Virus record (IMG/VR): IMGVR_UViG_3300004774_000004
Location: 1 to 62,688 of that record
Reading direction: 5' to 3' (one strand)
Source: a virus
DNA: 62,688 bases
Shown: positions 4,546 to 52,374 of the stretch, in pieces
How positions within the stretch are numbered: position 1 is the first letter of the stretch
How the letters are laid out: every line of letters starts with the position of its first letter
Notes under the pieces: model-generated
Told to the model about the DNA's origin: nothing
Databases searched by the model: none
The model's input: only the letters and a program-made list of their open reading frames with translations
Translations under genes and position numbers: made by a program

Positions 4546-4551
4546 ATGTTT

Positions 4552-5434: not shown

Positions 5435-5454
5435 TAACATATAAGGAGATTTAC

Positions 5455-7108: not shown

Positions 7109-7155
7109 AATTAGGTAAGGTTTAATTTTAAAGAAATAAAGAAAGAAGGTTCACC

Positions 7156-10049: not shown

Positions 10050-10101
10050 ATACACTAGATAATAAATGTAGTATGTGTTAGAGTTATATAAAGGAGAGGA
10101 T

Positions 10102-14625: not shown

Positions 14626-15752
14626 GTTTTGAGATACAAACTCATCATGGAAAGTTTGTTATGTCGGATAAAACTGCATGGTTAGGTTTCTACAATCAAT
14701 ATGTCAGTTGTGAATATAGAAGCCTAGCCAAGTTATCTAAGTACATAGGGATCAGTATGAAACTTTTAAATAAGATTTTTAAATTTCATAACTTCGTTAA
14801 GATGCCTAAGGGGAATAGAAAACAAATAGTATCGTGTACCATGGGTAATCTGGATAAATCTAACATATCGGACTGGGAATTTATAATATCCAAATATACA
14901 GAAGGCATGTCTATTGAAACTCTCGGAGAGACGTATGGAGTACCTCCTACAACTTTAGCTAGGATATTAAAATCATTTGATATTAAGATAAGAGACACCG
15001 CTGAACGTAATATCCTAGGAGTTAGACATGCAAAAATATCTAATTTAAGAAAATATGGTGTGGAGAGTCTTTCAGGAACTAAAGAAGTTCAGATGAAAGC
15101 TAGAGCTACTCTTTTTAAAAATAAGGGAGTATACCATATAACTGAGTTAGATTCATGGAGGGAGGATAGACGAAGATTAAAAATATCTGAACAGATTAGG
15201 ATAACTAATAAGAAACTAATAGAGCAAGAGTTAAACCTATTATCTGAATATGTAGGAGTTTTTGATAAGGATACCCAAGGAAACTACATAAGATGGCATG
15301 TTTATGAGTTTAATTGTTTAAAATGCTCTAATGTATTTAAAGATAGTTTTGATAATTTTCCAAAATGCCCTAAATGCCGTCCATCTCCTAAATCAAAGCC
15401 AGAATTAGAGATAAGAGATTATATAGAAAAAATGGGAATACTCGTTGAATGTTCCAGAAGGGATTTGATATCAAATCCTATCACAAGAAGGGGTTTAGAA
15501 ATTGATATATACCTTCCAGAACTTAAGTTAGCTTTTGAGTACAATGGGTACATATACCATCTAGAAGAGTCTAAATCTACTATAGATGAGAAAAAGAGAT
15601 GGCGTAACTTTATAAAAAAAGATGGCTATCATGACAATAAAACCGCAATATGCCAGAAAGTTGGGATTAGACTAGTACATCTGTGGGAGAGTAGAAAACA
15701 AGATAATATGGATGAGTTAAAGAGGATAGTGGACAAAGAAATAAGGAGTTAA
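14622..15752 (+). CDS. Vsr-like (EDxHD) homing endonuclease
   Basis: A 376-aa protein from ATG 14622 (ATGA overlap with the previous stop; the upstream TTG 14580 lies within that gene). Two helix-turn-helix-like blocks (15-60, 80-125) and about two KYG-type repeats (136-178) precede a zinc knuckle with C232, C235, C249 and C252. The Vsr/EDxHD nuclease spans about 261-360: EIDIYLP with D295, FEYNGYIYH with H313, GYHDNK with H337 and D338, VHLWESR. The HD pair of the EDxHD signature is intact. Unlike the copies at 5455 and 32090, it lacks the GNAT-like tail. Confidence 0.82.
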   Translation: MSFEIQTHHGKFVMSDKTAWLGFYNQYVSCEYRSLAKLSKYIGISMKLLNKIFKFHNFVKMPKGNRKQIVSCTMGNLDKSNISDWEFIISKYTEGMSIETLGETYGVPPTTLARILKSFDIKIRDTAERNILGVRHAKISNLRKYGVESLSGTKEVQMKARATLFKNKGVYHITELDSWREDRRRLKISEQIRITNKKLIEQELNLLSEYVGVFDKDTQGNYIRWHVYEFNCLKCSNVFKDSFDNFPKCPKCRPSPKSKPELEIRDYIEKMGILVECSRRDLISNPITRRGLEIDIYLPELKLAFEYNGYIYHLEESKSTIDEKKRWRNFIKKDGYHDNKTAICQKVGIRLVHLWESRKQDNMDELKRIVDKEIRS

Positions 15753-16517: not shown

Positions 16518-17453
16518 ATGAAAAATTTGAATAATAGGGTATTTCAAGATTTAGAGAGAATTCTTAGAGGCCAGACGGGTAAAAACTTGGATATAGGTAT
16601 TATAACAGCTGAAAATAAAGACGGTAGGCTTCTATCTGATAGAGAGAATAATGAAAGAACCGAAAGACTGTATAGGGATTTAAAAGAAATTCCGCACATT
16701 AGGATGTATAGTTTACAAGGTAATTCTAATGGGGTAGATGAGAACTCGTTCTTAGTTACGGGAGTACCTTTAAAAAAATTGGAGCAATTAGCTAGTAACT
16801 ATGAACAACCTTCATTCATATACGGGAAAGGTAGAGAGGATGATATGTCCTTTCTATATATGTCAGCCATGAACTCTGGAAATGGGCATGTGGATTACGA
16901 ACCTCAAGGCAGAAGAAGAACTTTTATATTTAAACCAGATGCTAGATCTGACTATAGTAGGTATAAGGGGATTAAGTTTGTAATACCTTTCGGGGATAGT
17001 AATTATGCTGGGACGACATGGGACGAACTAACTGAGGAAGACAAAGGAGAGATGTCAGAAGAACAACACATGGAAGATGAGTTAAGTAATGAGCTATCAG
17101 AATATCCCGAGGACATTAATTATAAAAAGGAAAATGAACGGATGGAAAAATCACAGATATTAAGAATTAAAAATTTAGTAGAGTCCTTAGTTGTGGATGA
17201 GAAAGAGAAAGTCAAGATAAAAGTAAAACATGCAGACCTGTTAGAGATTCCAGAGGATAAGAAATTTTGGCAGATGCCTTTCAAGCATTACACGGATCTA
17301 GTAGATTCTAAAGGAAAAGATGGGTATCAAAAGGTTATACGTGCACTAACCAATTTAGAAACTTGGAACGAAAAAGATGATCCTAAGATTTCAAGAGAAG
17401 CTAGAAAACTTATAGAGAAATTACACCAGAAATTCAGACCTGATGAAAAATAG
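16518..17453 (+). CDS. DUF3293-like protein with helical C-terminus
   Basis: A 311-aa protein. Residues 24-105 resemble the DUF3293 pattern: IGIITAENKDGRLLSDRENN, RLYRDLKE, then DENSFLVTGVPLKKLEQLASNYEQPSFIYG. An acidic linker follows at 175-205 and a charged helical C-terminal part at about 205-311 (DKKFWQMPFKHYTDLVDSKG). Function of the DUF is unknown to me. It starts a late-promoter unit and overlaps the following endonuclease by 11 nt, so it could be virion-associated. Confidence 0.6.
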   Translation: MKNLNNRVFQDLERILRGQTGKNLDIGIITAENKDGRLLSDRENNERTERLYRDLKEIPHIRMYSLQGNSNGVDENSFLVTGVPLKKLEQLASNYEQPSFIYGKGREDDMSFLYMSAMNSGNGHVDYEPQGRRRTFIFKPDARSDYSRYKGIKFVIPFGDSNYAGTTWDELTEEDKGEMSEEQHMEDELSNELSEYPEDINYKKENERMEKSQILRIKNLVESLVVDEKEKVKIKVKHADLLEIPEDKKFWQMPFKHYTDLVDSKGKDGYQKVIRALTNLETWNEKDDPKISREARKLIEKLHQKFRPDEK

Positions 17454-18699
17454 ATATGTGACAACTAATTTCGGGATACTTGATAAGGAGTCGGTAGAGG
17501 ACTGGAGGAATTATTATACTTTATACCTTAAAGGGAATTCTACTGAGGAACTATCAGATCAACTAAAGATAAGCAGAAGTCTATTGATTAGAATATTTAG
17601 AAATTTAAAGTTCCCCCTAATTGGAAAAGATTATATAAAAACAAATCTTGGGGTTATGGATAAGAGAGATCTGAGTATATGGAAACCTTACCATGTATCC
17701 TACATAAATGGGGAGTTTTCCATAAAGGACATAGCTAAGACTTTGGATATAAGTTATTGCTCTTTGAGTCGTATCTTTAAGAGATTTAATTTAAGCATGG
17801 TCGAGCCCTCTATAAGGAATACTAGACGAAAGATTAAGATAGATGCTACTATAATGTCTAAATATGGGGTAACTCACATACTACAATCCAAAGATATAAA
17901 AAATAAGATAAGGAACACTAACTTAGAAAGAAGAGGTGTAGAGTACCCGTCCCAGTGTAGGAAAGTTAGAGATAAGATAGAGAAGGTTTGTATTAAAAAA
18001 TACGGAGTCTCTTGTGTTTTAAGGAATAAGTCTATCAAAAGACAAATATCAGATACTTTAAATATAAAGTATGGAGTAAGTTATTGTGGACAAATAGAAA
18101 CCCACACAAATATACTTAAGGGTAGGGCTTTATTAAGATGGGAGGAATATCTACTAGAAAACGACTATACTTTACTAAGTGAATACTCTGGAAGAATTGA
18201 GAAAGAATCTGGAAAGTATGTATGTAATAAGGAGTACTCTTTCAAACATAACCCATGTGGAAACATATTTAAGAGTACCCTCTCCAAAAGTATCATATGT
18301 CCACACTGTTGTAGGGGGAATAGGTCAAAAAATGAGATAGATATACACAGTTATATTATATCGTTAGGTTTCGAGGTAGAGACAAATAATTGGAATCTCA
18401 TAAAGAATCCTGTAACGGGGAGATGTTTTGAGATAGACCTATATATACCTAAATTGAGAATAGCCTTTGAGTATAATGGATGGTATTGGCATAGGGAAGT
18501 AGACGAAGCAGATACCATAAATTTAAACATTAAAGACACTAAACCAAATGGATATCATGATTTAAAAACAAGCCTATGTAAGGATGCAGATATCAGACTG
18601 TACCACCTCTGGGAAAGTAGGAAGGGTGATAACATAGAAGAGTTAAAACAACAGGTATTTTATATTTTAAATGTATACTTAGACAATAAAGAAGATTAA
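17443..18699 (+). CDS. Vsr-like (EDxHD) homing endonuclease
   Basis: A 418-aa protein. Two helix-turn-helix-like blocks (15-60, 75-118) are followed by four KYG-type repeats of about 23 residues (132-222) and a zinc knuckle with C272, C286, C289 and C290. The Vsr/EDxHD nuclease covers about 298-395: EIDLYIP with D332, FEYNGWYWH with H350, GYHDLK with H372 and D373, YHLWESR. The EDxHD signature is complete and there is no GNAT-like tail. The start overlaps the preceding gene by 11 nt and no ribosome site is evident. Same architecture as the copy at 14622 but with more repeats. Confidence 0.82.
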   Translation: MKNRYVTTNFGILDKESVEDWRNYYTLYLKGNSTEELSDQLKISRSLLIRIFRNLKFPLIGKDYIKTNLGVMDKRDLSIWKPYHVSYINGEFSIKDIAKTLDISYCSLSRIFKRFNLSMVEPSIRNTRRKIKIDATIMSKYGVTHILQSKDIKNKIRNTNLERRGVEYPSQCRKVRDKIEKVCIKKYGVSCVLRNKSIKRQISDTLNIKYGVSYCGQIETHTNILKGRALLRWEEYLLENDYTLLSEYSGRIEKESGKYVCNKEYSFKHNPCGNIFKSTLSKSIICPHCCRGNRSKNEIDIHSYIISLGFEVETNNWNLIKNPVTGRCFEIDLYIPKLRIAFEYNGWYWHREVDEADTINLNIKDTKPNGYHDLKTSLCKDADIRLYHLWESRKGDNIEELKQQVFYILNVYLDNKED

Positions 18700-32034: not shown

Positions 32035-32063
32035 TTGACTTTTCTTTATTAGTATGTTATACT
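32035..32063 (+). promoter_or_regulatory. sigma70-type promoter, extended -10
   Basis: TTGACT at 32035-32040, 17-bp spacer, TGT, TATACT at 32058-32063. It begins 3 bp after the gp25-like stop and serves the endonuclease. Confidence 0.83.
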
Positions 32064-32089
32064 ATGTATTATTAATAGTATGGAGAATT

Positions 32090-33937
32090 ATGTTGAAGAA
32101 AACTGGAACTAACTTTATAATATCAAAGACAGGTCTTATTTATCTCAAAGATAGTATAGAATGTTGGAAACCTGCATATCTAGAATACTTAGATGGAAAA
32201 TCATTAAAGGTATTGGAAGGGTTACTGGGCATTAGTGAGGGAACTTTTAAAAAGTATTTCTTAAAATTTGGGTTTTCCTTAAGAAACGCAGAAGAGAGTA
32301 AAGAACAGAGAGTAAAAACAAATATACTTAAATATGGAGTTCCATATGTGTTACAATCTAAAGAGATTAAAGATAAAGGCATAACTACCAATAGAGAGAA
32401 ATATGGAACCGACTATGCCTCACAAGCCGAAGAGATTAGAGACAAAATAAAGGATACTAATCTCGAAAGGTATGGATTTTCATCAGCTACCAAATCTGAA
32501 AAAGTCAAAGATAAGATAAAGGCTACTTGCATTCATAAATATGGGGTTGAGTATGCTGTTCAGTCTAAAGAATCTGTAGCTAAAAAAGAGTCTACTAATT
32601 TAGAAAGGTACGGAGTAATCAACCCGTTCCAATCAGAAGATATTAAGAATAAAATAAAGAAAACTAATCTAGATAAGTATGGATTTTCATCAGCTACCCA
32701 ATCCGAATTGATAAAAAGTAGGATAAGAAAAACTAATTTAGAGAAATATGGCTGTATTCATGCTCTCCAAACAGAAGAATCCATGAGTAAATTGAGAAGT
32801 ACAAATATATTTAAATATGGATATCCATACGCTATGCAATCTTCTAAGATAGCCAGTAAAGTAAGAAAATTTAAGAAAGAGTCCGTATTAGAGAGTATTA
32901 AAAATAGATTTAATTCGAAGGAATCCGAGTACACGTTATTAGATAGCTATAAAGGCGTATTCTACAACGTAGGTAATAAACTAAAATGGGTTAAATATAG
33001 CGTAAAGCATAGGGTATGTGGTTCTGTTTTTAAAAGTGCCATGAAAGCTGATATAAAATGTCCAATATGTTTTCCTCAGATGAGGGGAGAATCTCAGAGT
33101 AAAATACAAGAATTTATAAATTCTTTAAATATTGACACTGTAGTTAATGATAGGGGGACTATATATCCCCTAGAGATAGATATTTTAATACCTAAGTTGG
33201 GCATTGGATTTGAGTATAACGGGAGTTACTACCATAGTTCTAAGTTTAAGGTATCTAGCTCTTACCACAAAGTAAAAACGGAGTCTTCACTAGCGAAAGA
33301 GATTAAGTTATATCATATATGGGAACATGACAACGAAGATATAATAAAGAGCATGATCAGATCAACATTGGGGAGATGTGAGTGTAGGTATCATGCTCGT
33401 AAACTTAAAGTTAAAGAAGTAAGCATTAGAGAACGTAGAGACTTCTTTAACAATAATCATCTTCACGGGGATGTAAGTAGTAACTTGGCTTTAGGATTAT
33501 ACGAGGGTTCTAAATTAGTAAGTTGTATATCTTTCAGGAAGTGTAGGGAAATCATTGAGATAGCTAGGTTCGCCACACTCTTAAACTCATCATGTGTAGG
33601 AGGATTTTCAAGATTATTAAAAAGTAGTATCCATGAATATAAAATGCAAGGTTATACTAAAATAATAACGTATTGTGATCGAGACTGGACACCTAATTAT
33701 AAAGATTCAGTATATTTTAAAAATGGTTTTAGATTTATAGGGGATACTGGAGTTCAATTAAAATATTACAATGAACGTAGGGAAGTAGTTAGTAGAGAGA
33801 AATATCAGAAACATAAACTTAAAAAAATGTTTCCAAAGTCATATTCAGATACCAAAACAGCAGATCAGATATTGGAAGAAAATAGTATCTATTCAATACA
33901 TAATAGTGGTAATTGGAAATTCGAAATGGATATTTAG
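32090..33937 (+). CDS. Vsr-like (EDxHD) endonuclease with eight KYG repeats and GNAT-like tail
   Basis: A 615-aa protein from ATG 32090 (GGAG upstream; the earlier ATG 32054 overlaps the promoter -10). A helix-turn-helix-like segment at 18-65 precedes eight tandem repeats of 23-24 residues (75-260) of the form TNxxKYGxxxxxQSxExxxK. A zinc knuckle follows (H307, C310, C324, C327). The Vsr-like core is at 336-412: EIDILIP with D364, FEYNGSYYH with H382, SYHK at 391-394, LYHIWE. The GNAT-like C-terminal domain is at about 430-550 (NHLHG, GLYEGSKLVS, GGFSRLLK, DSVYFKNGFRFI), ending HNSGNWKF. It separates gp25-like from gp6-like genes. Confidence 0.84.
   Translation: MLKKTGTNFIISKTGLIYLKDSIECWKPAYLEYLDGKSLKVLEGLLGISEGTFKKYFLKFGFSLRNAEESKEQRVKTNILKYGVPYVLQSKEIKDKGITTNREKYGTDYASQAEEIRDKIKDTNLERYGFSSATKSEKVKDKIKATCIHKYGVEYAVQSKESVAKKESTNLERYGVINPFQSEDIKNKIKKTNLDKYGFSSATQSELIKSRIRKTNLEKYGCIHALQTEESMSKLRSTNIFKYGYPYAMQSSKIASKVRKFKKESVLESIKNRFNSKESEYTLLDSYKGVFYNVGNKLKWVKYSVKHRVCGSVFKSAMKADIKCPICFPQMRGESQSKIQEFINSLNIDTVVNDRGTIYPLEIDILIPKLGIGFEYNGSYYHSSKFKVSSSYHKVKTESSLAKEIKLYHIWEHDNEDIIKSMIRSTLGRCECRYHARKLKVKEVSIRERRDFFNNNHLHGDVSSNLALGLYEGSKLVSCISFRKCREIIEIARFATLLNSSCVGGFSRLLKSSIHEYKMQGYTKIITYCDRDWTPNYKDSVYFKNGFRFIGDTGVQLKYYNERREVVSREKYQKHKLKKMFPKSYSDTKTADQILEENSIYSIHNSGNWKFEMDI
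32312..32869 (+). repeat. eight KYG-type coding repeats
   Basis: Eight in-frame repeats of 69-72 bp within the endonuclease gene. Two units (near 32470 and 32680) share long identical stretches at the DNA level, suggesting recent duplication or conversion between repeats. Confidence 0.85.
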
Positions 33938-36856: not shown

Positions 36857-39800
36857 ATGAGTAGGTATACACCCATACTCACCGAGTTAGGAAGTCAGTT
36901 AATTTTAGATAGTTTAGCAAACGGTACCAATATAACATTGAAGTATTTTGCTTGGGGGGATAGTAACGGATTTCAGACTCCTCCTAATCCTATACAGACT
37001 GCCTTAAATCATGAAGTGTATAGAAAAGAAATAGACTATGTTTTTCTGGATCCAAACATGATTAACTGGTTAGATGTTCTAACTATAATTCCAAGTGACG
37101 TTGGGGGATTTACTGTAAGAGAAGTTGGGATATTTACTCAAGATGGTAGTCTGTTCGCAGTAGCGGAACACCCTGAATTTTATAAGTCAATACCTATCGA
37201 TGGAACCACCATAGAATTTAAAGAAAAATTTATAATTAAGATAGGAAACCTTACAGAGGTAAATATAACCCTGAATCCTATGTCGACTCTGGATGCTACC
37301 AGCATAGGCAACGGTTCTGTAAGTAATGAAGAGTTCCAGTGTCTTGACGGAGTAACTTCACCTATCCAACCCCAGTTAGACGGTAAAGTTAATAGAGTCG
37401 GAGATACCATGACTGGAAATTTAACCATTCCAGAAGGTACTTTAAGTGGACATGCTGTGAATAAGGGACAATTAGACGCAAAAGTTGATAGAGCTGGAGA
37501 TACCATGACTGGAAATTTAACTATTCCAGATGGTACTTTAAGCGGGCATGCTGTGAATCTAGGTCAATTGGGGAGTATACTTGAGGCAAAACTACCCCCA
37601 ACTTTCTTGTCAGGATTAACATTATCTAATAGTAATTCTTCAGGAGCGACTGAGATAATAGCTGTAGGTACTACTTCTAATACAGCTTATAGATCCCTTG
37701 ATAATGGAGCTACATGGGACCTCGGAGTTCCAATACCTACCGAAATAAGTAATTCAGCAGTAGATAGTATAACTCAGTTAATGAATGGGGACCTACTAGC
37801 TACTGGAAACGTCACACAGTTAATATATAGATCTACAGATAGGGGATACACTTGGACAAGTGGTACAAAAGTAGACCCTTCAGTAGTTATCTCATTAAGG
37901 GGAATTACTCAACTTACTAACGGGGATGTACTAGCCACAGGATTCACATCTAATAAAGTGTACAGATCCATCGATAATGGAGTTACATGGGACCCTGGAG
38001 TTTTAGTAAGAACTGGGGCGGGTCTTCAGAATATAACTCAACTAGCTAACGGATACATACTCGCTACAGGGGATACAACTAAAAAAGTTTATACTTCTAA
38101 GGATAATGGAGTAACATGGGGTGACGGGGTACTAGTACCGAGTGCTACATCATTATCCAACATAGTTCAATCAAAAGACGGTCCTATCCTAGTTTTAGCG
38201 AGGAATGATCGTAAAATATATAAATCTACGGATGTGGGAAATCTAGGAACTACCTGGGATCCTGGAACTTCAATACCCGTACCTGTTGGTACTAGCTTAC
38301 ACGGGTTATGCAAAACAATAACTGGAGACATACTAGTCTCTGGAAATGGAAATAAAATATTTAGATCCCTATACCCTAGTAACGGAGCTGATTGGGATGC
38401 TGGAACTTTTATAGCGACTGGAGCTAGTGTTACAGGCTTAGTACAGGTAAGAACATCTGGAGATATATTAGCTACAGGATACCAATCTGACAGTATCCAT
38501 AGATCAAGCGATCAAGGACTTAACTGGGATTCTGGCTCTTTAGTGGAATATGGATCAGGATTAGATAGCATGGTACAACTAGCCAGTAGTGAGCTACTTG
38601 TAACAGGTAATACTTCTAATAAAGTATATAAATCCATCGATAAAGGAGATACATGGGACTCGGGAGTTCTCATAACAGATGCCTCTAGTATCGGGGATAT
38701 TACTCAGTTAGTAAATGGAAGTATTCTAGTAACTGATAGAGTAACAGATAAAGTATATAAATCCATCGATAAAGGAGATACATGGGACTCAGGGGTTTTA
38801 ATAGAAAATTTAATAGCCGTAACTCCAAACACGCAAGTTTCTGGATCGAATAGCTATAATTTTAGCATAAATGGAGATGTTACATCCCAAATACCAGACC
38901 ACTCCACAGTTAAGATGCAAGGAGGTTCTGGAATAGAATATGTAGTGAGTGCTACTTATGATGGCATAAACGATATCACTAACATATTTAGAGATGATAG
39001 TCTCGAGATAGACCCTATTGATAGAGCCTTATATGCTGGAGGGACACTACTTAAAAAGTCTACAAGTAACTCTATTCGAGGAATACTCCAAACATCTAAC
39101 GGAAGTATACTAGTTACTGGAGAAGACTCAGGTAAAGTATACAAGTCGTTTGATAACGGGGCTACATGGGATATTGGAACTTTAATTGATTCTGGAGCAG
39201 GTATATGCGACATCATACAAACAGCTAATGGAAGTATAAGGGTACTCGGATATACTTCAAATAAAGTGTACACGTCTACAGACAACGGGAATACATGGGA
39301 CTCTGGAGTTTTAGTGGCTAGTGGGGCAGGGCTTATAGGGATAATTCAGACAGATTATGGAGATTTAGTAGTTACAGGAGCATTATCTAAAAAAGTATAT
39401 AGGTCTAGGAATAACGGACTCAACTGGAGTAGTGGAGTTTCTTCTTATGTAAATCCTCGCCCAATATCAGTTAATGTTTTAACCAACGGAGATGTAGCTG
39501 TATGTGGTTACAGTTCTGATAGGATATACCTGTCTGAGGATAATGGATCCACTTGGGATAGTGGTTCTTTAGTATCCAATGGAACAGGACTAATGTCAGT
39601 TATTCAGTTAGCCAATGGAGACCTCCTTGCAACTAATGAAATGTCAAATAGGGTATTTAAGTCTACAGACTATGGAGTTACTTGGGATACTGGGATTGTA
39701 GTAGCTTCTGGATTCTTTTTAGACGGAATAATACAACTAAGCAATGGAAGTATACTAGCAGTAGCCCATAATAATGATAAGGTCTATAAGTCCATAGATA

Positions 39801-41050
39801 ATGGAGCTACATGGAATACTGGAACTGTCATATCCACAGGAGCTGGAATACGTAATTTAGTTCAGTCAACAATTGGGATATCTTCGGGACGTATATTTGC
39901 TACGGGAGAGCATACTAACAAAGTATACATGTCTACAGATAATGGAGTAACATGGAATGGCGGTGGAGGTAGTGGAAATCCTTGGCTTACTGGGATATTA
40001 GTATCTGCTGGGGCAGGTATTTTTGGAATAACTGAGGATACTAACGGAAACTTGTTAGTTACGGGAAGTACTTCCCACAAAGTATACAAGTCCACCGACG
40101 ATGGACTAACATGGAATGGAGGGAATGTATCTCCATGGCAAACAGGAATTCTGATAGGGGATAGTGCTACGGGCATAACCCAAATAACAAATGGAGATAT
40201 TCTAGTAGCTGGAAATTCTTCGAATAGGATATACAGGTCTACTAATGGTGGGGAGAGTTGGGACGCAGGGAGCTTCTCCTATGAGAATTTCAGCTTAGGT
40301 GATGTAATGCAACTATCCGTAGATTCTGGAGTAGGGATAGACATATCCGCAGGTAAAGCCAGATCTGATGATGACACGGCTAATATCGAATTTACAAGTT
40401 TATCTTCATCTTTTAAAACATTAGATAGCCTTTTTATAGAAGGTACTGGGAATGGCGGATTGGATGAAGGGGTAAAAACAATAAACACTTGGTATCATGT
40501 ATATGTTATCTCTAAACTAGACGGTACTAGTGATATATTATTTTCTCAAAACGCAGTATCTCCCATAATGCCTACAGACTTTGTATACCAAAGAAGGGTT
40601 GGAAGTATTCTTACAGACTTATACGGTGGAATAGTAAAATTTCAACAGAGGGGGGACAAGTTTTATTACTTAAACCCTAGAACCGATTATTATTCAGGAA
40701 CTCCTGGAACTCCTTCTGGATCTTGGACACTTTTACCCCTAGGAACTCCATACGGAGTTCGTTGTGAAGCCCTCATGAACATTTCTATTGTAGGAGGAGC
40801 TCCTGGGAATGGATTAGAAGCTCTTATATATGTAAAACCTACATTTATGAATACTCCGCAGCATTTTGTAGGAATATACCCAAGAGCAGACGGTGGAGGA
40901 GATTATGTAGGAAGTAGAGATAGTAGTGGTATTTCTATATTTACGGATACAGCATCTAGAATACATAGAAAAGAGACTACAGCTGGGCAAACTTGGGCTA
41001 CTTTTGAATATGATACCTATGGTTGGATTGATACTAGGGGAAAAAATTAA
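36857..41050 (+). CDS. tail fibre with 18 Asp-box (BNR-like) repeats
   Basis: A 1397-aa protein. Residues 1-150 match the gpH-type fibre N-terminus that attaches to the baseplate (YTPILTELGSQLILDSLANG, GGFTVREVGIFTQDGSLFAVAEHPEFYK). Two 32-residue DTMTGNLTIP/GHAVNxGQL repeats follow. Then come 18 copies of the Asp-box form S-x-D-x-G-x-T-W (for example YRSIDNGVTW), nine before and nine after an NDG-like module at about 668-732, suggesting two beta-propellers. The last 200 residues form a separate tip. Asp boxes are common in sialidases and other carbohydrate-active propellers, so receptor binding to a surface glycan is likely. Confidence 0.82.
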   Translation: MSRYTPILTELGSQLILDSLANGTNITLKYFAWGDSNGFQTPPNPIQTALNHEVYRKEIDYVFLDPNMINWLDVLTIIPSDVGGFTVREVGIFTQDGSLFAVAEHPEFYKSIPIDGTTIEFKEKFIIKIGNLTEVNITLNPMSTLDATSIGNGSVSNEEFQCLDGVTSPIQPQLDGKVNRVGDTMTGNLTIPEGTLSGHAVNKGQLDAKVDRAGDTMTGNLTIPDGTLSGHAVNLGQLGSILEAKLPPTFLSGLTLSNSNSSGATEIIAVGTTSNTAYRSLDNGATWDLGVPIPTEISNSAVDSITQLMNGDLLATGNVTQLIYRSTDRGYTWTSGTKVDPSVVISLRGITQLTNGDVLATGFTSNKVYRSIDNGVTWDPGVLVRTGAGLQNITQLANGYILATGDTTKKVYTSKDNGVTWGDGVLVPSATSLSNIVQSKDGPILVLARNDRKIYKSTDVGNLGTTWDPGTSIPVPVGTSLHGLCKTITGDILVSGNGNKIFRSLYPSNGADWDAGTFIATGASVTGLVQVRTSGDILATGYQSDSIHRSSDQGLNWDSGSLVEYGSGLDSMVQLASSELLVTGNTSNKVYKSIDKGDTWDSGVLITDASSIGDITQLVNGSILVTDRVTDKVYKSIDKGDTWDSGVLIENLIAVTPNTQVSGSNSYNFSINGDVTSQIPDHSTVKMQGGSGIEYVVSATYDGINDITNIFRDDSLEIDPIDRALYAGGTLLKKSTSNSIRGILQTSNGSILVTGEDSGKVYKSFDNGATWDIGTLIDSGAGICDIIQTANGSIRVLGYTSNKVYTSTDNGNTWDSGVLVASGAGLIGIIQTDYGDLVVTGALSKKVYRSRNNGLNWSSGVSSYVNPRPISVNVLTNGDVAVCGYSSDRIYLSEDNGSTWDSGSLVSNGTGLMSVIQLANGDLLATNEMSNRVFKSTDYGVTWDTGIVVASGFFLDGIIQLSNGSILAVAHNNDKVYKSIDNGATWNTGTVISTGAGIRNLVQSTIGISSGRIFATGEHTNKVYMSTDNGVTWNGGGGSGNPWLTGILVSAGAGIFGITEDTNGNLLVTGSTSHKVYKSTDDGLTWNGGNVSPWQTGILIGDSATGITQITNGDILVAGNSSNRIYRSTNGGESWDAGSFSYENFSLGDVMQLSVDSGVGIDISAGKARSDDDTANIEFTSLSSSFKTLDSLFIEGTGNGGLDEGVKTINTWYHVYVISKLDGTSDILFSQNAVSPIMPTDFVYQRRVGSILTDLYGGIVKFQQRGDKFYYLNPRTDYYSGTPGTPSGSWTLLPLGTPYGVRCEALMNISIVGGAPGNGLEALIYVKPTFMNTPQHFVGIYPRADGGGDYVGSRDSSGISIFTDTASRIHRKETTAGQTWATFEYDTYGWIDTRGKN
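37385..37576 (+). repeat. two 96-bp tandem repeats in fibre gene
   Basis: Two units of 96 bp (starting at 37385 and 37481) encode the DTMTGNLTIP...GHAVNxGQL motif, a common shaft repeat of phage fibres. Confidence 0.85.
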
Positions 41051-41068
41051 ATAGAGGAGAAAATATAT

Positions 41069-41707
41069 ATGAATGTTAATAGATCATGTCGAATACTTGA
41101 CAAAAGAACTGGAGCTAACTATTTCGGAATGATAGATACTGAATTTGAAGGTTTAGATTTCTACCATTTAGTAGAGATTTCAAATAATGGTAAAAACTAT
41201 GCCTTTAAGAACGGCATGATCGTAGAGAGTGTTTTAGACATGCCCGCAATAAGACAGCAAGGGATAGACTATCTAACAAAGAGGGTACTAGAACATAAGG
41301 CTGTAGAATTTATAATTCCTATAAATACAGCAGATAATAAAGTTATAAACATAGCTACTGATTTAAAGGATACTACCCTAGGTCAATGGCTTATTGTAAA
41401 GAATAAAATACCTAAAGACTTAAAAGATGTAGATGGGAATGTTATAGCTACTAATGTAAGATATGTACAAGTGTTAAATAAAGATACACTTATGCAAGAG
41501 TTCGTACCATTAACAGAGGAAGAGATATTAAGACTTAATACATTCTTAACAAACTCGGTTGATGTGCTAACTTGTACTATAATAAACTTAACTAATTCAA
41601 TACTGACAGCTCCAGATGAATTAGTAGCTAGGGTCTATAATATGACTGATGCAGAGAAAGAAGCACACATACTATATCTTATAGAAGTCAATACACCTAC
41701 TTTTTAG
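41069..41707 (+). CDS. unknown tail-associated protein (212 aa)
   Basis: A 212-aa protein directly after the fibre gene (AGAGGAG upstream). The N-terminal part is strand-rich (RILDKRTGANYFGMIDTE, FYHLVEISNNGKNYAFKNGMIV) and the rest alpha/beta with a helical end (DAEKEAHILYLIE). Position suggests a fibre assembly or attachment protein, as genes next to fibres often encode chaperones. No family recognised. It is the last late gene before a strong terminator. Confidence 0.62.
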   Translation: MNVNRSCRILDKRTGANYFGMIDTEFEGLDFYHLVEISNNGKNYAFKNGMIVESVLDMPAIRQQGIDYLTKRVLEHKAVEFIIPINTADNKVINIATDLKDTTLGQWLIVKNKIPKDLKDVDGNVIATNVRYVQVLNKDTLMQEFVPLTEEEILRLNTFLTNSVDVLTCTIINLTNSILTAPDELVARVYNMTDAEKEAHILYLIEVNTPTF

Positions 41708-41731
41708 AACTTCCCTCCAACACCCTTCTTT

Positions 41732-41760
41732 GAGCTTCATGAAAATGAGGCTCTTTTTTT
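41732..41760 (+). terminator. terminator T1, end of late region
   Basis: 9-bp stem (41732-41740 with 41745-41753, one G-U), GAAA loop, long T-tract. Confidence 0.9.
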
Positions 41761-41772
41761 ATTGCAAGACTA

Positions 41773-41801
41773 TTGACTTTATAATAGACATGTGTTATAG
41801 T
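41773..41801 (+). promoter_or_regulatory. sigma70-type promoter P1
   Basis: TTGACT, 17-bp spacer, TGT, TATAGT at 41796-41801. Confidence 0.8.
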
Positions 41802-41807
41802 AATAAT

Positions 41808-41861
41808 GTGTTTCAAAAATTTGTCATTTGTATCCTCCCTTAAATAAGGAGGATTTTTTTT
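41808..41861 (+). ncRNA. candidate small RNA from P1 to T2 (about 54 nt)
   Basis: Promoter P1 should start near 41808 and terminator T2 ends near 41861. The short transcript holds no open frame with a ribosome site. Its hairpin contains TCCTCCC and AAGGAGGA, i.e. anti- and pro-Shine-Dalgarno sequences paired to each other. Confidence 0.4.
41833..41861 (+). terminator. terminator T2
   Basis: 9-bp stem with one bulged C (41833-41842 with 41845-41853) and an eight-T tract. Confidence 0.88.
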
Positions 41862-41867
41862 ATCCTA

Positions 41868-41896
41868 TTGACATAGTAATTAATATATGCTATAAT
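41868..41896 (+). promoter_or_regulatory. consensus sigma70 promoter P2
   Basis: TTGACA, 17-bp spacer, TGC, TATAAT at 41891-41896: full consensus, equal to the one at 4517. Confidence 0.9.
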
Positions 41897-41902
41897 GATA
41901 CT

Positions 41903-41976
41903 ATAGGTATTGACGAGTACTTTGTCTCCTAGTCAACTCTACTTACATAACTCTCTCCTGACGAGGGGAGTTTTTC
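41903..41976 (+). ncRNA. candidate small RNA from P2 to T3 (about 73 nt)
   Basis: The expected transcript starts near 41903. TTGACGAG at 41910-41917 pairs with CTC and GTCAA at 41926-41936, with a 3-nt bulge, to form a hairpin. The RNA ends at the T3 hairpin. A consensus promoter making so short a structured RNA suggests a phage regulatory RNA. No start codon with a ribosome site is seen in it. Confidence 0.45.
41953..41975 (+). terminator. terminator T3
   Basis: 6-bp GC-rich stem (41953-41958 with 41965-41970, one U-G), 6-nt loop, five Ts. Confidence 0.65.
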
Positions 41977-41984
41977 TCTATATA

Positions 41985-42013
41985 TTGACTTTAAGGTTTA
42001 AGTATGATAATAT
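41985..42013 (+). promoter_or_regulatory. sigma70-type promoter P3
   Basis: TTGACT at 41985-41990, 17-bp spacer, TGA, TAATAT at 42008-42013; drives the replication operon starting at 42045. Confidence 0.65.
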
Positions 42014-42044
42014 ATTGTTATGTCACAGTAAAAGGAGTATAACT

Positions 42045-42398
42045 ATGTTTTTCCCAGAGATAATTTTAGAAGAGGAAGACATTCAATATCTGTTACAAGA
42101 AGATGTATTTCAAGGTAGACTGTTAGATAAGGAGAGTGGAACTAGCTATTATAGATTAAATCCTAGAAAGTTTGATCGTCTTATAGATATAGTCTATGAC
42201 AGTAATCTTTTTGGGGATTCTGATAAGAACATGATAGAGTTCAACTTAAGAACAGTTGTTAAAATATTCACGAGTATTATCCAAAGAAAGGATAGTCTCA
42301 TGATAACTAATGCCATCCTGAGTTACTATCTTATAAATAAGGAGAATGCCATGACTCTCATGACATATCTAAGGGGTGACTTAAAGGATGGGGAATAA
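42045..42398 (+). CDS. unknown protein opening the replication operon (117 aa)
   Basis: From ATG 42045 (AAAGGAG upstream) the protein has 117 aa. The frame stays open back to TTG 41910, but that stretch contains T3 and P3 and is not coding. It is acidic at the N-terminus (EIILEEEDIQYLLQED), then helical. No motif recognised. It overlaps the exonuclease gene by 11 nt. Confidence 0.68.
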   Translation: MFFPEIILEEEDIQYLLQEDVFQGRLLDKESGTSYYRLNPRKFDRLIDIVYDSNLFGDSDKNMIEFNLRTVVKIFTSIIQRKDSLMITNAILSYYLINKENAMTLMTYLRGDLKDGE

Positions 42399-43305
42399 AG
42401 ATTTATTGATACTTATAGACTACTCTTGGCTACTGAATCGTTGTCATTGGGGGTATTCAAAACATCCGTCTTGTCATATTAACATAGAAGGTGAGAAAGT
42501 TTACATAGGTTCCATACTGGGACTATCCTTATTTACTGAAAAAGTATCTAAGAAATATCCAGAAGCTAAGATAGTATTTATCATGGACGGAAAGTGTACT
42601 AAGAAAACATTAAACGAAGACTACAAAGCTGGGAGGGTTAAGAAGGAAGATGTCCATGTTAATGATAAGGAGATAATTAACATACTAAGTAACGTACCTA
42701 AAGTATATTTTGCTATCAATGATAAACAGGAGGCTGATGATCTTATTGCAAGCATGGCATATAAATTTAAAGATACATTTAAGGAAGTTATCATACACTC
42801 AGGGGATTGTGATTTCTGGCAATTGAGTGATACTTTTACAGTATCGAAAGAGTATGAAAAAGGATTTAAGAAAATAAAACCTATAGATGTTTTAAATAAG
42901 TTTGGAGTTGATACCCAATCCCTACTAGCCTTTAGGGTACTGGATGGCGACTCATCTGACAATTTACCTAAACCCGTATCTAGGGTAAAAACTGAGTTTA
43001 AAGTAGAGATATCGGATAAATGGAAAGACGATTTGACTATTGATAACTTTACTGAAATAATGTATTCTTATAGAGGGACTCCAAATGAGAAGATAGCAGA
43101 TAAGTATCTAGAAGCCATCGATACAGTAGAGACAAACTTATTGATTATGGATTTGAAAAAATATTCTAATCCAGAACTTCAGCTAAGTTATAACATGACT
43201 CGGATTAAAAATCCAGATAGATCTTTGATATCCTACTATAAGCTCTCACAGTTAGAAGGCTACATGTACGATTTAAGTAGAAAAAAGGAGACTAGTATTG
43301 GTTAA
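42388..43305 (+). CDS. 5'-3' exonuclease / RNase H, FEN-like
   Basis: A 305-aa PIN/FEN nuclease, like T4 RNase H or the exonuclease domain of Pol I. Acidic metal ligands are visible: D11 (ILIDYSWLLNR), D67 (FIMDGK), E115, D117 and D118 (KQEADDLIA), D140 and D142 (SGDCDFWQ), D187 and D191 (VLDGDSSDN). The family A polymerase in this phage lacks its own 5' nuclease domain, so this enzyme likely removes RNA primers. It overlaps the next start by 8 nt. Confidence 0.85.
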   Translation: MGNKDLLILIDYSWLLNRCHWGYSKHPSCHINIEGEKVYIGSILGLSLFTEKVSKKYPEAKIVFIMDGKCTKKTLNEDYKAGRVKKEDVHVNDKEIINILSNVPKVYFAINDKQEADDLIASMAYKFKDTFKEVIIHSGDCDFWQLSDTFTVSKEYEKGFKKIKPIDVLNKFGVDTQSLLAFRVLDGDSSDNLPKPVSRVKTEFKVEISDKWKDDLTIDNFTEIMYSYRGTPNEKIADKYLEAIDTVETNLLIMDLKKYSNPELQLSYNMTRIKNPDRSLISYYKLSQLEGYMYDLSRKKETSIG

Positions 43306-43855
43306 TATAGGTTTATACTCCCCTTCAATGCAATCTGGGAAAACTACTACGGCAGACTATCTTATGGCTTTTTACGGATATAAGAGAATAGTATTAGCTA
43401 AGACTCTTAAAAAAATGACAGAGGCTTTCATAAGAGGGCTAGGATATAGCGAAGATATGATTCAGAGAATGGTTTACGGAGATTTAAAAGAAACAGTTAT
43501 ACTCGAGATAGGAAAGACTCCTAGGTATCTACAACAAACGATCGGAACTCAGTGGGGGCGGGCTTATATAGGGGATTCAGTGTGGTTGGATATAGGTACT
43601 AACAATCTGGATAAAAATATAAATCATATTTGTGAGGATGTTAGATTCCTAAACGAAGCAGATACTTTTAGAGAAAAAGGATTTAAGCTTATAAAGATAG
43701 TAAGACCTAGTGCTGTAATCACAGAAGAACATGAGTCAGAAGGCAAACTAAATGATTACCCATGGGACTACACTATCATAAATGATGGAACGATTGAAGA
43801 TTTTTATGGTAAGATAGATAGAATAATGAAGGAGATTACAAATGAAAATCAATAA
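43298..43855 (+). CDS. deoxynucleoside monophosphate kinase
   Basis: A 185-aa P-loop kinase: GLYSPSMQSGKTTTAD at 5-20, and GTQWGRAYIGDSVWLD and DVRFLNEADTFREKG match T4 gp1-type dNMP kinases, which phosphorylate dNMPs for phage DNA synthesis. It starts at TTG 43298 with AAGGAG correctly spaced, overlapping the exonuclease stop. The DVRFxNE stretch is a strong family marker. Confidence 0.8.
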   Translation: MVNIGLYSPSMQSGKTTTADYLMAFYGYKRIVLAKTLKKMTEAFIRGLGYSEDMIQRMVYGDLKETVILEIGKTPRYLQQTIGTQWGRAYIGDSVWLDIGTNNLDKNINHICEDVRFLNEADTFREKGFKLIKIVRPSAVITEEHESEGKLNDYPWDYTIINDGTIEDFYGKIDRIMKEITNENQ

Positions 43856-44111
43856 CAACAACTTAGGTGAAAGAAGTTTAGCTCAAAGTAATGAAGTACT
43901 TTTAGAGCATTATACTAAAATAAGAGATTTGGATCCTATTAGGTTGGTAGAGTATGGGTACAAGACTTATATATTTTATAAACGTGGAATAACTACTTAC
44001 GGATATATGCACCTAGAAGGCAATCGAATTCAAGAGAGTTTTAAAATAGGGAAGAAGGATGTGCACACTAAAGGTATGACATCTAGTAGTCCTAGAAATG
44101 TAACTGAATGA
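43842..44111 (+). CDS. unknown protein (89 aa)
   Basis: An 89-aa protein overlapping the kinase gene by 14 nt, with AAGGAG before the ATG. A likely small alpha/beta fold (RLVEYGYKTYIFYKRGITTYGYMHLEGN) is followed by a Ser-rich tail. Not recognised. Confidence 0.62.
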   Translation: MKINNNNLGERSLAQSNEVLLEHYTKIRDLDPIRLVEYGYKTYIFYKRGITTYGYMHLEGNRIQESFKIGKKDVHTKGMTSSSPRNVTE

Positions 44112-48398: not shown

Positions 48399-48880
48399 TG
48401 TGTAATAATGAAATAGGTAAATTAGATAAAAGACAGCTTAAAACTTTAATAGAAAGGCTGGTACCCTTTGAAGAGTTAACAGATGTTCATACGGGAAGAC
48501 CTATAGATATTAAATTAGGTACTTGTTTTTGCTTATTTCATGATAATAAAAATAGTCCCGCAGCTAAATGGTTCCATGATGAGGATGGAATAACTAGATT
48601 ACAGTGTTGGAGTTGTAATAAACAATTTACATCCTATGACTACATTACAAAAATACAAGGACAAGACCCTTTGAAAATCATAGGCATGCAATTCACCGAG
48701 AAAGAGTTAAAAGATATCCTAAAGATACTCAGAGATACTGGAAGTTTCGATAAACATATAGATGATTTTTCAAAAGAAATTCATAATAAGTGGGTAGATA
48801 GTGATGAAGACTTATCTACATTTTTAGATGATCTGTATTTTGGGTATACGGTCAAAGAGGTTAGAGAGGAGATTAAATAA
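48398..48880 (+). CDS. primase-type zinc-binding protein without catalytic domain
   Basis: A 160-aa protein, GTG start sharing a base with the helicase stop. C45-x2-H48 (CFCLFHDNKNSPAAKWF) and C70-x2-C73 (QCWSCNK) form the CHC2-type zinc site found at the N-terminus of DnaG-type primases. No TOPRIM or RNA polymerase domain follows; the remaining residues are helical and acidic. It may be the template-recognition subunit of a two-part primase. The catalytic part was not found in this window. Confidence 0.72.
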   Translation: MCNNEIGKLDKRQLKTLIERLVPFEELTDVHTGRPIDIKLGTCFCLFHDNKNSPAAKWFHDEDGITRLQCWSCNKQFTSYDYITKIQGQDPLKIIGMQFTEKELKDILKILRDTGSFDKHIDDFSKEIHNKWVDSDEDLSTFLDDLYFGYTVKEVREEIK

Positions 48881-51800
48881 TGGCATTAGATAATAAACTA
48901 GGGTATACTCACTTCTTTAGTGGACAAGTGCCTTTAGATTGGAATTGGGAGAGTAAGGCTAAGTTTAACCTCGTAACTAACGTACTCGAGTTACATCAGA
49001 TACTCTCAGAAAATAAAGGTAAGACAATGGCTGTGGATACCGAAACGACTGGATTGGATCTAGGCATGGACAAGGTAGTTGGATTTTCATTCTCTTTTGA
49101 TGAATGGAAAGGTTACTATGTTCCTATAAGACATGAAGAGGTTAGTCGGATAGAAACTGAAGTGCCTAAGATAGATAAAGAGGGTAACAAGGTTTTATAC
49201 AAGAAAACGGGACTTCCTCAGATGAAGAAGATAACTCTTGAAGAGTACACTCCTTACAATTGCAATCTTGATCCTAAGGTAGCCTTAGATTTAATATATG
49301 AAACCATGCTCAACGCCAAGCTTGTTTTAATGCACAATGCTATTTTTGACAGCATGATGATAAAAAAAGAAGATTACGACATGTCAAAGATTAACTTATT
49401 TGATACTATGGTTTTGACCTATAATTCAGATACTAACGCCTCAGGTCAATTTGGTCTGAAACCTGCTTCTGAACTCTTCCTAGGCAGAAGAGCCCAGAAG
49501 TTCAAAGAGGTATTAGGAAAGTCTAAAACTTTTCAATATATAAACCCAACAGATTGCTTTGAGTATGCATGTTCGGATGCAATAAATACTTACGGACTGT
49601 TTAAAAAATTGTATCCTATGCTTAGAGCAGAAGGATGTGAAAGCATTCTTAAAATGGACAATGCTTTAGTTAAGTCTTTTATAAATTACTATACCTCAGT
49701 TCCTATTTATATCGATAAGAAGATAATGAGAGAATATGAGGAAGAGATTTTAAGAAGAAAAAAAGATCTTGAGATGTCTATCTACAAGGCGGTAGGATAC
49801 CCTTTTAACATAGCTTCAAAATCTAACGAACTAGTAAAAGCGTTAGAAAGTATGGGGATAGATACAGGAGTAAAAACTGATGGAGGTAAGATGAGTACCT
49901 CCAAGGATTCCCTACTTGCAATATCAGATAAACATCCCATAGCAAAAGAACTTATAGAGTTAAGCGGTCTTGAGAAAGCTTTAAACACTTATATACATAA
50001 ACTAGCCAATGCCAACTCAGTGTCCGATGAGAATCCAGATGTAGGGATGTGTAGGGTAAACTATAAACTCTTCGGCACAGCCTCAGGAAGGCTTGCATCT
50101 GGAGGCGGAGCTAAGTCTAAGGTATTGGAGGATGATTACTTTATCAATTTGAATATTCAAAATCTGACCAAACCCAAACCAGCCATGTATAATGCTGTAA
50201 AAATATCTGATGATTTTAGAGAAGGTATTTTAGGTTATAGATTTGATCTATTAGGAAAACCAGGAAGTAATGAAGTCAAAGAATTCATTACTAATAATAA
50301 AGATGCTTATATTATAGAAGGATTCTCCCCAGAGATCAATGTACGAAAAGCTATAAGAGTTAAAGATGATACTGAACTTATTGCCTCATTAGATTACAAT
50401 GGGGAAGAGTTAAAGATCGCAGGGATATTATCAGGAGAGCCTAATTTTATAGAACCTTTCAGATTAGGTTTAGATGTTCACACAGAAATGGCTAAGAAGT
50501 TATTTGGAGAAGCTAACTATAATAAAGAGAAGAGAAAAGCAGCAAAAGTTTGTTTGGGGGATAACTCATTTGTTTTAACAAATAGAGGCTTGGTTAGACC
50601 TTACTCATTATTAAGCACGGATAAAATAATAGATAGGTTTGAGAGAGAACAGGATTTTATTTATGCAGAGGATTTTTCGGATACTATTGAAGTGTTATAT
50701 GATTCAGGCATAGTTGAGGAGTACAAGACAGATCACCCTGTCTTAACATGGGATGGAGATAAGACATCTTGGAAAAAAGTGGGAGATTTAACAGGTTTAG
50801 ATCAAGTGTTAACTAGAACAAATATACATAAAGGCAGTAGAACATCAAAAATAGTGAATCTTAAAGAGTACTATAAAAGAAAATTTAAGAACATGAAGGA
50901 TACTTTAATAGATATGGCTACTCCAGAATTTGCATACATAGCTGGACTCTATTTAGGGGACGGGAGCATAGACTATAGTAACAAAGAAGATCATTATGTG
51001 GGAGTTACTTTAGGATGCTCGGATAAAGTATTAACTAGAGTATTACCTTACCTAAGTAGCTTGGGACTTGGAAAATTAACTCCCTACAAAGTTGGTAAGA
51101 ACAAAGTACTAAATATATTAAAACTTAATAATAGACCTCTAGCAGAAGTGTTTGAAATTAATTTTGGCAGGAAGGAATCTAAAAAGATACCTGATTGGAT
51201 ATACACCCACTGGGATTCTGGATGTCTTACTAACTTTATTTCAGGTCTACTAGATTCAGATGGAACCCGAAAAGGGAATAGATTATTCTTTGGGAATAAG
51301 AACATGAATATCATAAATAACTTTGCACTAACATGTTCTTTATTAGGAATAAAAACTAGGTATATAAAAGAAACACCTAAGTACAAAGGAATTCCGTTCG
51401 ATTTTCACACTCTTGTATTATATGAAATAGGAGACGTTAACCTAAATTTATCAAATGATTACAAGAATGTAACTAAGTCCAAGTACACTAATATAAGTTG
51501 GAATTGTACAAGTAAACTTGCTGATATTTTACATAGTAAAGTATTTTCTATTCCTAAAACATCAAAGACTATTAGAGATAACATCTATAACATTAAGAAA
51601 AAGGGATGCGGGCTTACAAGAAATGTACTAACTGAATTAGAATCGCTAGGGATAATCCTTGACATTAGTGGAGATTACCAACCCTCAAAAGTTATATCCA
51701 AAAAGATGGGTAATGGTAGAATACACGCAATTCAGACTACACACAGGGAGTACGTAAGTTCTTGTATAGTTAGTCATAATTGTAACTTTGGGATGTTATA

Positions 51801-52374
51801 CGGGGGAAGCCCGAATGTATTAAGGGCTGTAGCTGCTTCACAGGGGTTAATACTTTCAGAGAAAGAGTCTAAGGAATTATTTAATAAGTGGTGGAGAGCT
51901 AACTCAATCTTAAAATCATGGATACAGACTAACTTAGACTTAATCAAAGAAAATAACTTCACCGTTAAGGATATGTTTGGCCGACCAAGGAGAGTAAAAT
52001 CATATCTTTGCTCAGAGGAGAAGGGAGTGTATAATTTTGGTTGTCGTAGTATCCCGTCGCATCAAATTCAAGGTTCTGGGTCTTCAATAATCCGTAGACT
52101 AACTATAAATTTGGAGAAAAAAGTATTTAGCAACCCAGTTTATAAAGATAGAGCAAGGTTTATATCAGAAGTTCACGATGAAATGAATGTAGCTTTTAAG
52201 AAAGAAAATATAATAGATGATGTTAGGATGTTAGAAGATGAGATGATATATAAACCTAAAGGATCTCCAATTCCCATAGATTGTAGTATAGAGTTGGGTA
52301 ACAATTTAGGAGAACTGTTTGGATTTGTGTGGGAAACATCTGAGAGATTGAAATTAATACCTAAGAGAGCTTGA
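48880..52374 (+). CDS. DNA polymerase, family A, interrupted by an intein
   Basis: A 1164-aa precursor. The 3'-5' exonuclease domain begins with AVDTETTGLD (D53, E55) and continues through LMHNAIFDSMM. Polymerase motif A is ASLDYNGEELKIAG. Motif B, RKAAKV..CNFGMLYGG, is interrupted by a 410-residue intein (558-967). Motif C is SEVHDEM. Without the intein the enzyme has 754 residues and no 5' nuclease domain, matching the separate exonuclease gene at 42388. It is unlike T4, which uses a family B polymerase, so the replication and virion modules have different kin. Confidence 0.9.
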   Translation: MALDNKLGYTHFFSGQVPLDWNWESKAKFNLVTNVLELHQILSENKGKTMAVDTETTGLDLGMDKVVGFSFSFDEWKGYYVPIRHEEVSRIETEVPKIDKEGNKVLYKKTGLPQMKKITLEEYTPYNCNLDPKVALDLIYETMLNAKLVLMHNAIFDSMMIKKEDYDMSKINLFDTMVLTYNSDTNASGQFGLKPASELFLGRRAQKFKEVLGKSKTFQYINPTDCFEYACSDAINTYGLFKKLYPMLRAEGCESILKMDNALVKSFINYYTSVPIYIDKKIMREYEEEILRRKKDLEMSIYKAVGYPFNIASKSNELVKALESMGIDTGVKTDGGKMSTSKDSLLAISDKHPIAKELIELSGLEKALNTYIHKLANANSVSDENPDVGMCRVNYKLFGTASGRLASGGGAKSKVLEDDYFINLNIQNLTKPKPAMYNAVKISDDFREGILGYRFDLLGKPGSNEVKEFITNNKDAYIIEGFSPEINVRKAIRVKDDTELIASLDYNGEELKIAGILSGEPNFIEPFRLGLDVHTEMAKKLFGEANYNKEKRKAAKVCLGDNSFVLTNRGLVRPYSLLSTDKIIDRFEREQDFIYAEDFSDTIEVLYDSGIVEEYKTDHPVLTWDGDKTSWKKVGDLTGLDQVLTRTNIHKGSRTSKIVNLKEYYKRKFKNMKDTLIDMATPEFAYIAGLYLGDGSIDYSNKEDHYVGVTLGCSDKVLTRVLPYLSSLGLGKLTPYKVGKNKVLNILKLNNRPLAEVFEINFGRKESKKIPDWIYTHWDSGCLTNFISGLLDSDGTRKGNRLFFGNKNMNIINNFALTCSLLGIKTRYIKETPKYKGIPFDFHTLVLYEIGDVNLNLSNDYKNVTKSKYTNISWNCTSKLADILHSKVFSIPKTSKTIRDNIYNIKKKGCGLTRNVLTELESLGIILDISGDYQPSKVISKKMGNGRIHAIQTTHREYVSSCIVSHNCNFGMLYGGSPNVLRAVAASQGLILSEKESKELFNKWWRANSILKSWIQTNLDLIKENNFTVKDMFGRPRRVKSYLCSEEKGVYNFGCRSIPSHQIQGSGSSIIRRLTINLEKKVFSNPVYKDRARFISEVHDEMNVAFKKENIIDDVRMLEDEMIYKPKGSPIPIDCSIELGNNLGELFGFVWETSERLKLIPKRA
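50551..51780 (+). mobile_element. intein with LAGLIDADG endonuclease in DNA polymerase
   Basis: A 410-aa intein, residues 558-967 of the precursor. It begins with Cys (CLGDNSFVLTNRG), has TDHPVLTWDG as the block B Thr-His, and ends VSHN before the +1 Cys of CNFG, so all splice residues are present. The insert contains a homing endonuclease with YIAGLYLGDGS at about 686-696 and NFISGLLDSDG at 785-795. It lies in motif B, the most conserved nucleotide-binding helix of the polymerase. Confidence 0.9.

Follow-up and report, generated by a model that had tools for sequence, protein, structure and literature searches.

Two candidate small-RNA genes with anti-initiation motifs between the structural and replication operons of a phage

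The viral DNA analyzed here (the window) comprises 62,688 bases of one virus record, and in it a 337-bp gap (41708-42044) separates the structural genes from the replication genes. The last gene with an assigned structural function encodes a tail fibre (36857-41050) and is followed by gene 41069-41707, which lies directly upstream of the gap and had no PHROG or Pfam match. Directly downstream is gene 42045-42398, with no PHROG match and one Pfam match below cut-off, followed by the first assigned replication gene, a 5'-3' exonuclease (42388-43305), and then by a deoxynucleoside monophosphate (dNMP) kinase. The gap thus lies between the tail fibre side and the exonuclease side, in agreement with the first-pass annotation, which had placed it at the border of the structural and replication halves. 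The junction DNA was identical over 6.2-8.9 kb in three other contigs, one of which is 170 kb long and matched the whole window at 99.997%. One substitution relative to this contig was located (26441), and the offset drops from 16375 to 16374, which points to a single gap. Genes on the 170-kb contig were called with a simple in-house ORF caller and no published gene finder. By eye, several ORFs among the structural genes are homing-endonuclease-like (4510-5391, 5425-7044, 10075-10851, 14580-15752, 17443-18699, and 32054-33937), and a DNA polymerase-like ORF (48880-52374) has an apparent intein with an endonuclease domain. Nine clustered tRNA calls were made by ARAGORN on the 170-kb contig at L012 7959-8894, where Rfam gave eight tRNA matches; a tRNA-Stop call (anticodon tta, L012 8077-8152) was not among these eight.

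Direct reading and scans placed three terminators and three promoters in the gap, all on the plus strand and in the order T1-P1-T2-P2-T3-P3 that had been claimed for them. T1 (41732-41761), with a stem of -12.1 kcal/mol (41732-41753) and a T run, is the terminator of the structural operon. P1 (41773-41801; TTGACT-17-TATAGT, 10 of 12 consensus positions, TG extension, matrix score 20.3) is the extended -10 promoter of a predicted RNA 1 (41808-41861), whose terminator is T2 (41832-41861; stem 41832-41854, -8.7 kcal/mol). T2 has a loop of 9 nt and was omitted by the tool scan; it was recovered by a separate in-house scan. P2 (41868-41896; TTGACA-17-TATAAT, matrix score 26.4) is the extended -10 promoter of a predicted RNA 2 (41903-41978) and has the perfect consensus attributed to it, with 12 of 12 positions, a 17-bp spacing and a TG extension. 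RNA 2 is terminated by T3 (41953-41978; stem 41953-41970, -9.4 kcal/mol). P3 (41985-42013; 9 of 12 positions) is the weak promoter of the replication operon; its matrix score of only 9.7 makes it much weaker than P1 and P2, and gene 42045 begins 25 nt past its predicted transcript start. The adjoining replication genes and an AT-rich stretch after T3 would suit a replication origin at which short transcripts prime or open the replication start, but across the 170-kb contig the cumulative GC skew keeps climbing and does not reverse near the junction, and we consider an origin here highly improbable.

P1 and P2 belong to a promoter class that extends over the whole phage. A promoter matrix was trained on 25 near-gene promoters of the 170-kb contig, with the junction excluded. 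At a matrix score of at least 14, it found 41 sites on the plus strand of that contig, 39 of them intergenic, versus one on the minus strand (contig 2890). The scores of P1 and P2 lie within the leave-one-out range of the training promoters (9.1-29.0). The extended -10 promoters, including P1 and P2, are a real, phage-wide class. At 30 of the 41 sites, an ORF of at least five codons led by a Shine-Dalgarno sequence was found 14-41 nt past the predicted transcript start. The terminator stems behind P1 and P2 end 46 and 67 nt past the start, ahead of any such ORF, and a terminator before the first Shine-Dalgarno-led ORF was flagged at 3 of the 49 sites listed (P1, P2, and contig 140171). SPO1-type phages have many strong consensus early promoters before small genes, with terminators between them; those promoter units hold genes, whereas the P1-T2 and P2-T3 units do not. 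A search for TATAAATA late promoters gave 33 plus-strand matches, five of them intergenic, and was set aside as uninformative.

Several other elements of the genome were recorded in these scans. Class promoters are present at the start of ORFs 4510 and 32054. The unit at L015 1606-1811 (contig 140206-140411; promoter 140171) runs about 200 nt from promoter to terminator and has no standard Shine-Dalgarno-led gene, a fold z-score of -1.73, and neither a phage blastn match nor an Rfam family; a frame started by ATT after AGGAGGT is an alternative by eye. A unit of about 140 nt at L014 5266-5409 (contig 124066-124209; promoter 124031) has a strong terminator, a z-score of -1.35, and only a 7-codon Shine-Dalgarno-led ORF. 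At L008 6615-7190, a class promoter is followed by some 575 nt that look non-coding (z -1.96, with no Rfam or phage blastn match), and then by an ORF at 7192. Fused terminator-promoter elements, in which the -35 box TTGACG is the terminator hairpin loop and the T run fills the promoter spacer, occur in three near-identical copies on the contig (L012 10479-10521, L012 11429-11471, and L014 1554-1596), and a similar element lies at window ~7063-7110.

The density of signals in the gap was compared with that of shuffled sequence. With a loose consensus, promoter-like sites in 40000-44000 were no more frequent than in shuffles (17 vs. 16.1), so the case rests on stricter tests. A loose scan of the same interval gave 8 terminator-like sites vs. 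1.5 in shuffles. Two promoters with a score of at least 20 are present in the gap and were found together in none of 1000 dinucleotide-preserving shuffles of it; three terminators at -8 kcal/mol or better are present, and two or more were again found in 0 of 1000. Over the window plus strand, two promoters matching 12 of 12 positions were observed vs. 0.2 expected. Stacked terminator-promoter blocks could nonetheless insulate a boundary by stopping structural read-through into the replication operon, or be a relic of lost small genes, with any RNAs as functionless by-products. Terminators that abut or overlap promoters recur on the contig (20892, 89686, 90636, 120361, and 140438), as such an explanation would have it, but a perfect promoter is unexpected in a dead unit.

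The lengths of the two predicted RNAs, with transcript starts inferred from the positions of the -10 boxes, agree with the earlier estimates of about 54 nt from P1 and 73 nt from P2: RNA 1 is predicted at ~54 nt and RNA 2 at ~74-76 nt. The sole hairpin of RNA 1 is its terminator, and RNA 2 comprises a 5' hairpin (41904-41945; UCUCCU on the loop side, z -0.82 when folded alone), a linker, and its terminator. The first-pass annotation described these RNAs as structured, one of them with paired Shine-Dalgarno and anti-Shine-Dalgarno sequence. Hairpins are indeed predicted, but the folds are only moderately stable, with a modest advantage over shuffles (z -1.75 for RNA 1 and -1.61 for RNA 2), and the pairing, although present, is the T2 terminator stem itself. 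Such unexceptional folds are consistent with by-products of an insulated or decayed boundary.

Neither unit holds a conventional gene, as had been proposed, since no Shine-Dalgarno-led ORF precedes T2 or T3. Two other frames do exist in the sequence, one beginning with the ATG at 41806, where P1 transcription is predicted to start, and one running from a TTG at 41910 into gene 42045, and could encode leaderless or otherwise non-canonical short peptides. We regard such peptides as very unlikely: neither frame has a Shine-Dalgarno sequence, that from 41806 is 13 codons long and stops within the T2 loop, and that from 41910 crosses T3 and P3. T3 lies within the would-be leader of gene 42045, and the 5' hairpin of RNA 2 rearranges in the fold of a read-through leader, which would be in keeping with attenuation, in which P2 (and P1) transcripts sometimes continue beyond T3 (and T2) and so supply gene 42045 and the replication operon, with an RNA switch or leader translation controlling the step. 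T3 was, however, kept in every one of the 12 top-ranking suboptimal structures computed for RNA 2, and gene 42045 is already served by P3; we consider attenuation quite unlikely.

An Rfam scan of the whole window found no family at curated cut-offs, and the best match below cut-off was suhB/mmgR over T1 (E 0.0076, 23.9 bits vs. 41 needed). Each of the two units has its own promoter and an intrinsic terminator with no gene between them, the arrangement expected of a phage-encoded small RNA gene. The promoters, the terminators, the lack of a Shine-Dalgarno-led gene and the motifs described below are all seen in the sequence. On this basis, there is good support for two short transcription units that end in terminators and hold no gene, and the two units are likely to be small-RNA genes. 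The earlier proposal of regulatory RNAs gains from the two short terminated units and from the lack of an Rfam match; the regulatory role itself is a candidate one.

The two RNAs share a motif complementary to a translation initiation site. In each, CAU (anti-AUG) lies 4-6 nt ahead of an anti-Shine-Dalgarno stretch in the 5' arm of the terminator. The region spans 41825-41838 in RNA 1 (CAU at 41825-41827, 6 nt, then CCUCC at 41834-41838) and 41946-41959 in RNA 2 (CAU at 41946-41948, 4 nt, then CUCUCCU at 41953-41959). The arms of T2 and T3 are extreme in composition: among 22 intergenic plus-strand terminators of the contig at -7 kcal/mol or better, with one nested duplicate dropped, the purine fraction of the 5' arm was lowest in T3 (0.0) and T2 (0.14), the next value being 0.36. 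The complement of RNA 1 reads GGAGG-6 nt-ATG and scored 15.5, the highest among the contig's 5859 minus-strand start codons and above the upper quartile (14.9) of the 125 real gene starts used as reference. The complement of RNA 2 is an initiation-like site that ranked 24th of the 5859, its score of 9.8 being under the lower quartile (10.7). The minus-strand frame opposite RNA 1 opens four codons only, and a stop codon stands immediately next to the ATG opposite RNA 2. Because these frames close at once, the minus-strand sites were read as antisense to ribosome binding sites and not as genes; minus-strand genes opposite the RNAs are also disfavoured because the only minus-strand class promoter lies elsewhere.

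A simple rule for an initiation-like site (AGGAG, GGAGG or GAGGT, 4-9 nt, ATG) found 14 minus-strand sites on the contig, of which only two are intergenic, one per RNA, and no such site in any of the 21 other terminator regions listed. The test of this motif was prompted by a 19-mer of RNA 1 that is also present in three other contigs, where it is complementary to a gene start, a match rejected as a homologue. When the linker was shuffled and the terminator kept, the motif, which was chosen for testing after the sequence was seen, arose in 508 of 5000 and 327 of 5000 trials, or about 0.7% for both RNAs together. Control trinucleotides at the CAU distance had 0-2 occurrences over both RNAs together and none occurred in both. 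Insulation, or the relic of lost genes, leaves the inverted T2 and T3 arms and the presence of the motif in both RNAs unexplained.

The nearest counterparts of the two RNAs are the csRNAs of the CiaRH regulon of streptococci, which are described as having lengths of 51-202 nt, strong promoters, a layout with two stem-loops or just the terminator hairpin, and an anti-Shine-Dalgarno sequence with a CAU anti-start in 53 of 61 csRNAs (PMC3091779). RNA 1, with its terminator hairpin only, and RNA 2, with two stem-loops, resemble these csRNAs in layout, in size and in the combination of CAU and anti-Shine-Dalgarno sequence. Both RNAs have the complementarity to a Shine-Dalgarno sequence and start codon that characterizes csRNAs, a likeness that is moderate after controls. 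Unlike csRNAs, which carry the anti-Shine-Dalgarno sequence in an unpaired region (PMC3091779), the phage RNAs have it locked in the 5' arm of the T2 or T3 stem, and their carrier is a phage. The csRNA promoters are described there with a CiaR repeat (NTTAAG-N5-TTTAAG) and the RNAs with a nonamer, [A/C]UCCUAAA[A/C], which a few csRNAs lack (PMC3091779). By eye, the CiaR repeat is absent from P1 and P2, and P3 has TTTAAG-N1-TTTAAG, which has the wrong spacing; RNA 2 matches the nonamer at 7 of 9 positions (CUCCUAGUC) and RNA 1 has no match. The two RNAs would by analogy work like csRNAs, yet they are not classed as csRNAs because the CiaR repeat and the conserved nonamer are missing and the anti-Shine-Dalgarno sequence lies in a stem.

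Phage small RNAs of similar size are known from lambdoid and P22-type phages, where OOP (77 nt), sar (68/69 nt) and AsxR (~54 nt) act by base pairing; the table that covers them holds mainly temperate-phage and prophage cases (PMC12197685). RNA 1 and RNA 2 match these RNAs in size; OOP is listed there as a cis antisense RNA (PMC12197685), whereas no cis target overlaps the RNA 1 and RNA 2 units. A literature search that covered mostly open-access journals found no report of anti-initiation small RNAs in phages.

The search for targets covered phage sequence. The best partner of RNA 2 among 283 phage initiation regions was the start of the dNMP kinase gene, 1.4 kb downstream (-33.7 kcal/mol). 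None of 40 shuffles did as well when the first 50 nt of RNA 2 were used, but 11 of 40 did with the full RNA, and 6 of 40 linker shuffles were as good when folding was counted. This start is also only the fourth-best distinct RNA 2 site on the whole contig, and it was demoted as a target on these genome-wide and cofold controls. The two best sites of RNA 1 on the contig were both initiation regions. In a first test none of 40 shuffles equalled the target preference of RNA 1, but this weakened with 100 linker shuffles, of which 3 were as good for the best site, 11 for the mean and 10 for the margin by which initiation regions exceeded coding windows; the single best coding window was equally unusual (3 of 100). 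In these weak tests, no phage target of either RNA stood out beyond the shuffle and coding-window controls.

No diverged relative carrying the junction was found; the junction was met only in the window and the three contigs identical to it there. A tail-sheath alignment yielded at least 80 viral loci and 3 genome loci, and the junction proteins were sought in 22 of these 80 viral records. The gene 42045 protein had no match in these 22 related records, and the exonuclease had weak matches in two of them (27 and 29% identity), whose short neighbourhoods had no junction-type terminator and no more than one promoter-like site. Scans with the exonuclease, the gene 42045 protein, a DnaB-like helicase and a helicase returned contigs of the same virus and two weak helicase matches. 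A 3-kb junction query had no blastn match among annotated phages. A query of 41800-41985 matched 8 records, none better than E 0.05; the four strongest matches came from Fusobacterium phages and covered the P2 promoter, and these were taken as chance. A 20-mer from the core of RNA 2 occurs solely in the three contigs of the same virus. A strict layout scan of 2,899,418 strand-bases found P1 only, at 8 loci of the same DNA, with a filter that misses P2.

A scan of other viral contigs for strong promoters followed by the anti-initiation motif gave at least 119 loci. In these 119, a terminator followed soon after the promoter at 8 of 117 motif promoters and at 0 of 118 further class promoters from the same loci, a comparison that is a lead and not proof because the G+C contributed by the motif itself makes hairpins likelier. 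By a hand calculation, all eight terminators would fall with motif promoters by chance with a probability of about 0.003. These eight units, in L120, L133, L192, L197, L210, L211, L212, and L222, have the terminator at ~61-94 nt and are possible further small RNAs of the junction layout. The four of them that were checked have open frames of 25, 70, 32, and 36 codons.

Taken as a whole, the real promoter class and terminators, the gene-less units, the extreme terminator arms and the motif in both RNAs point to two csRNA-like RNAs that would block ribosome binding sites, a tentative reading to which we give somewhat less than an even chance. Its main rival is boundary insulation or a relic of lost genes, which we hold to be rather unlikely but a serious contender because its evidence is close to that of the csRNA-like reading. 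Under the csRNA-like reading, the gap would consist of two tandem small-RNA genes between a structural operon ended by T1 and a replication operon started at P3. Host RNA polymerase with the housekeeping sigma factor would transcribe from P1 to T2, giving RNA 1, and from P2 to T3, giving RNA 2. Each RNA would present CAU in a single-stranded linker, followed by the anti-Shine-Dalgarno sequence, which forms the 5' arm of that RNA's terminator hairpin. The linker would pair first with the start codon of a target mRNA, after which the RNA would open its own hairpin and pair with the Shine-Dalgarno sequence, so that ribosome binding would be blocked, as proposed for streptococcal csRNAs. We infer that both RNAs would be transcribed, stable and able to pair in the cell, and that their targets may be phage or host genes.

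To our knowledge, few phage small RNAs have a known mode of action. The csRNA-like reading, if right, would offer a pair of short RNAs open to testing, with an explicit mechanism and a simple signature (strong promoter, CAU, and anti-Shine-Dalgarno sequence in a terminator arm) that can be searched for in other phages. A broader proposal, that phages encode a class of anti-initiation RNAs which mimic the complement of the ribosome binding site and use the terminator stem as a latch opened by the target, is in our view unlikely. If true, such a class would shut down or re-time the translation of many host or phage mRNAs, and the motif-terminator units of the other viral contigs would be further members of it. 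If the csRNA-like reading of the junction is right, the csRNA principle of blocking initiation regions would extend from streptococcal chromosomes to viruses.
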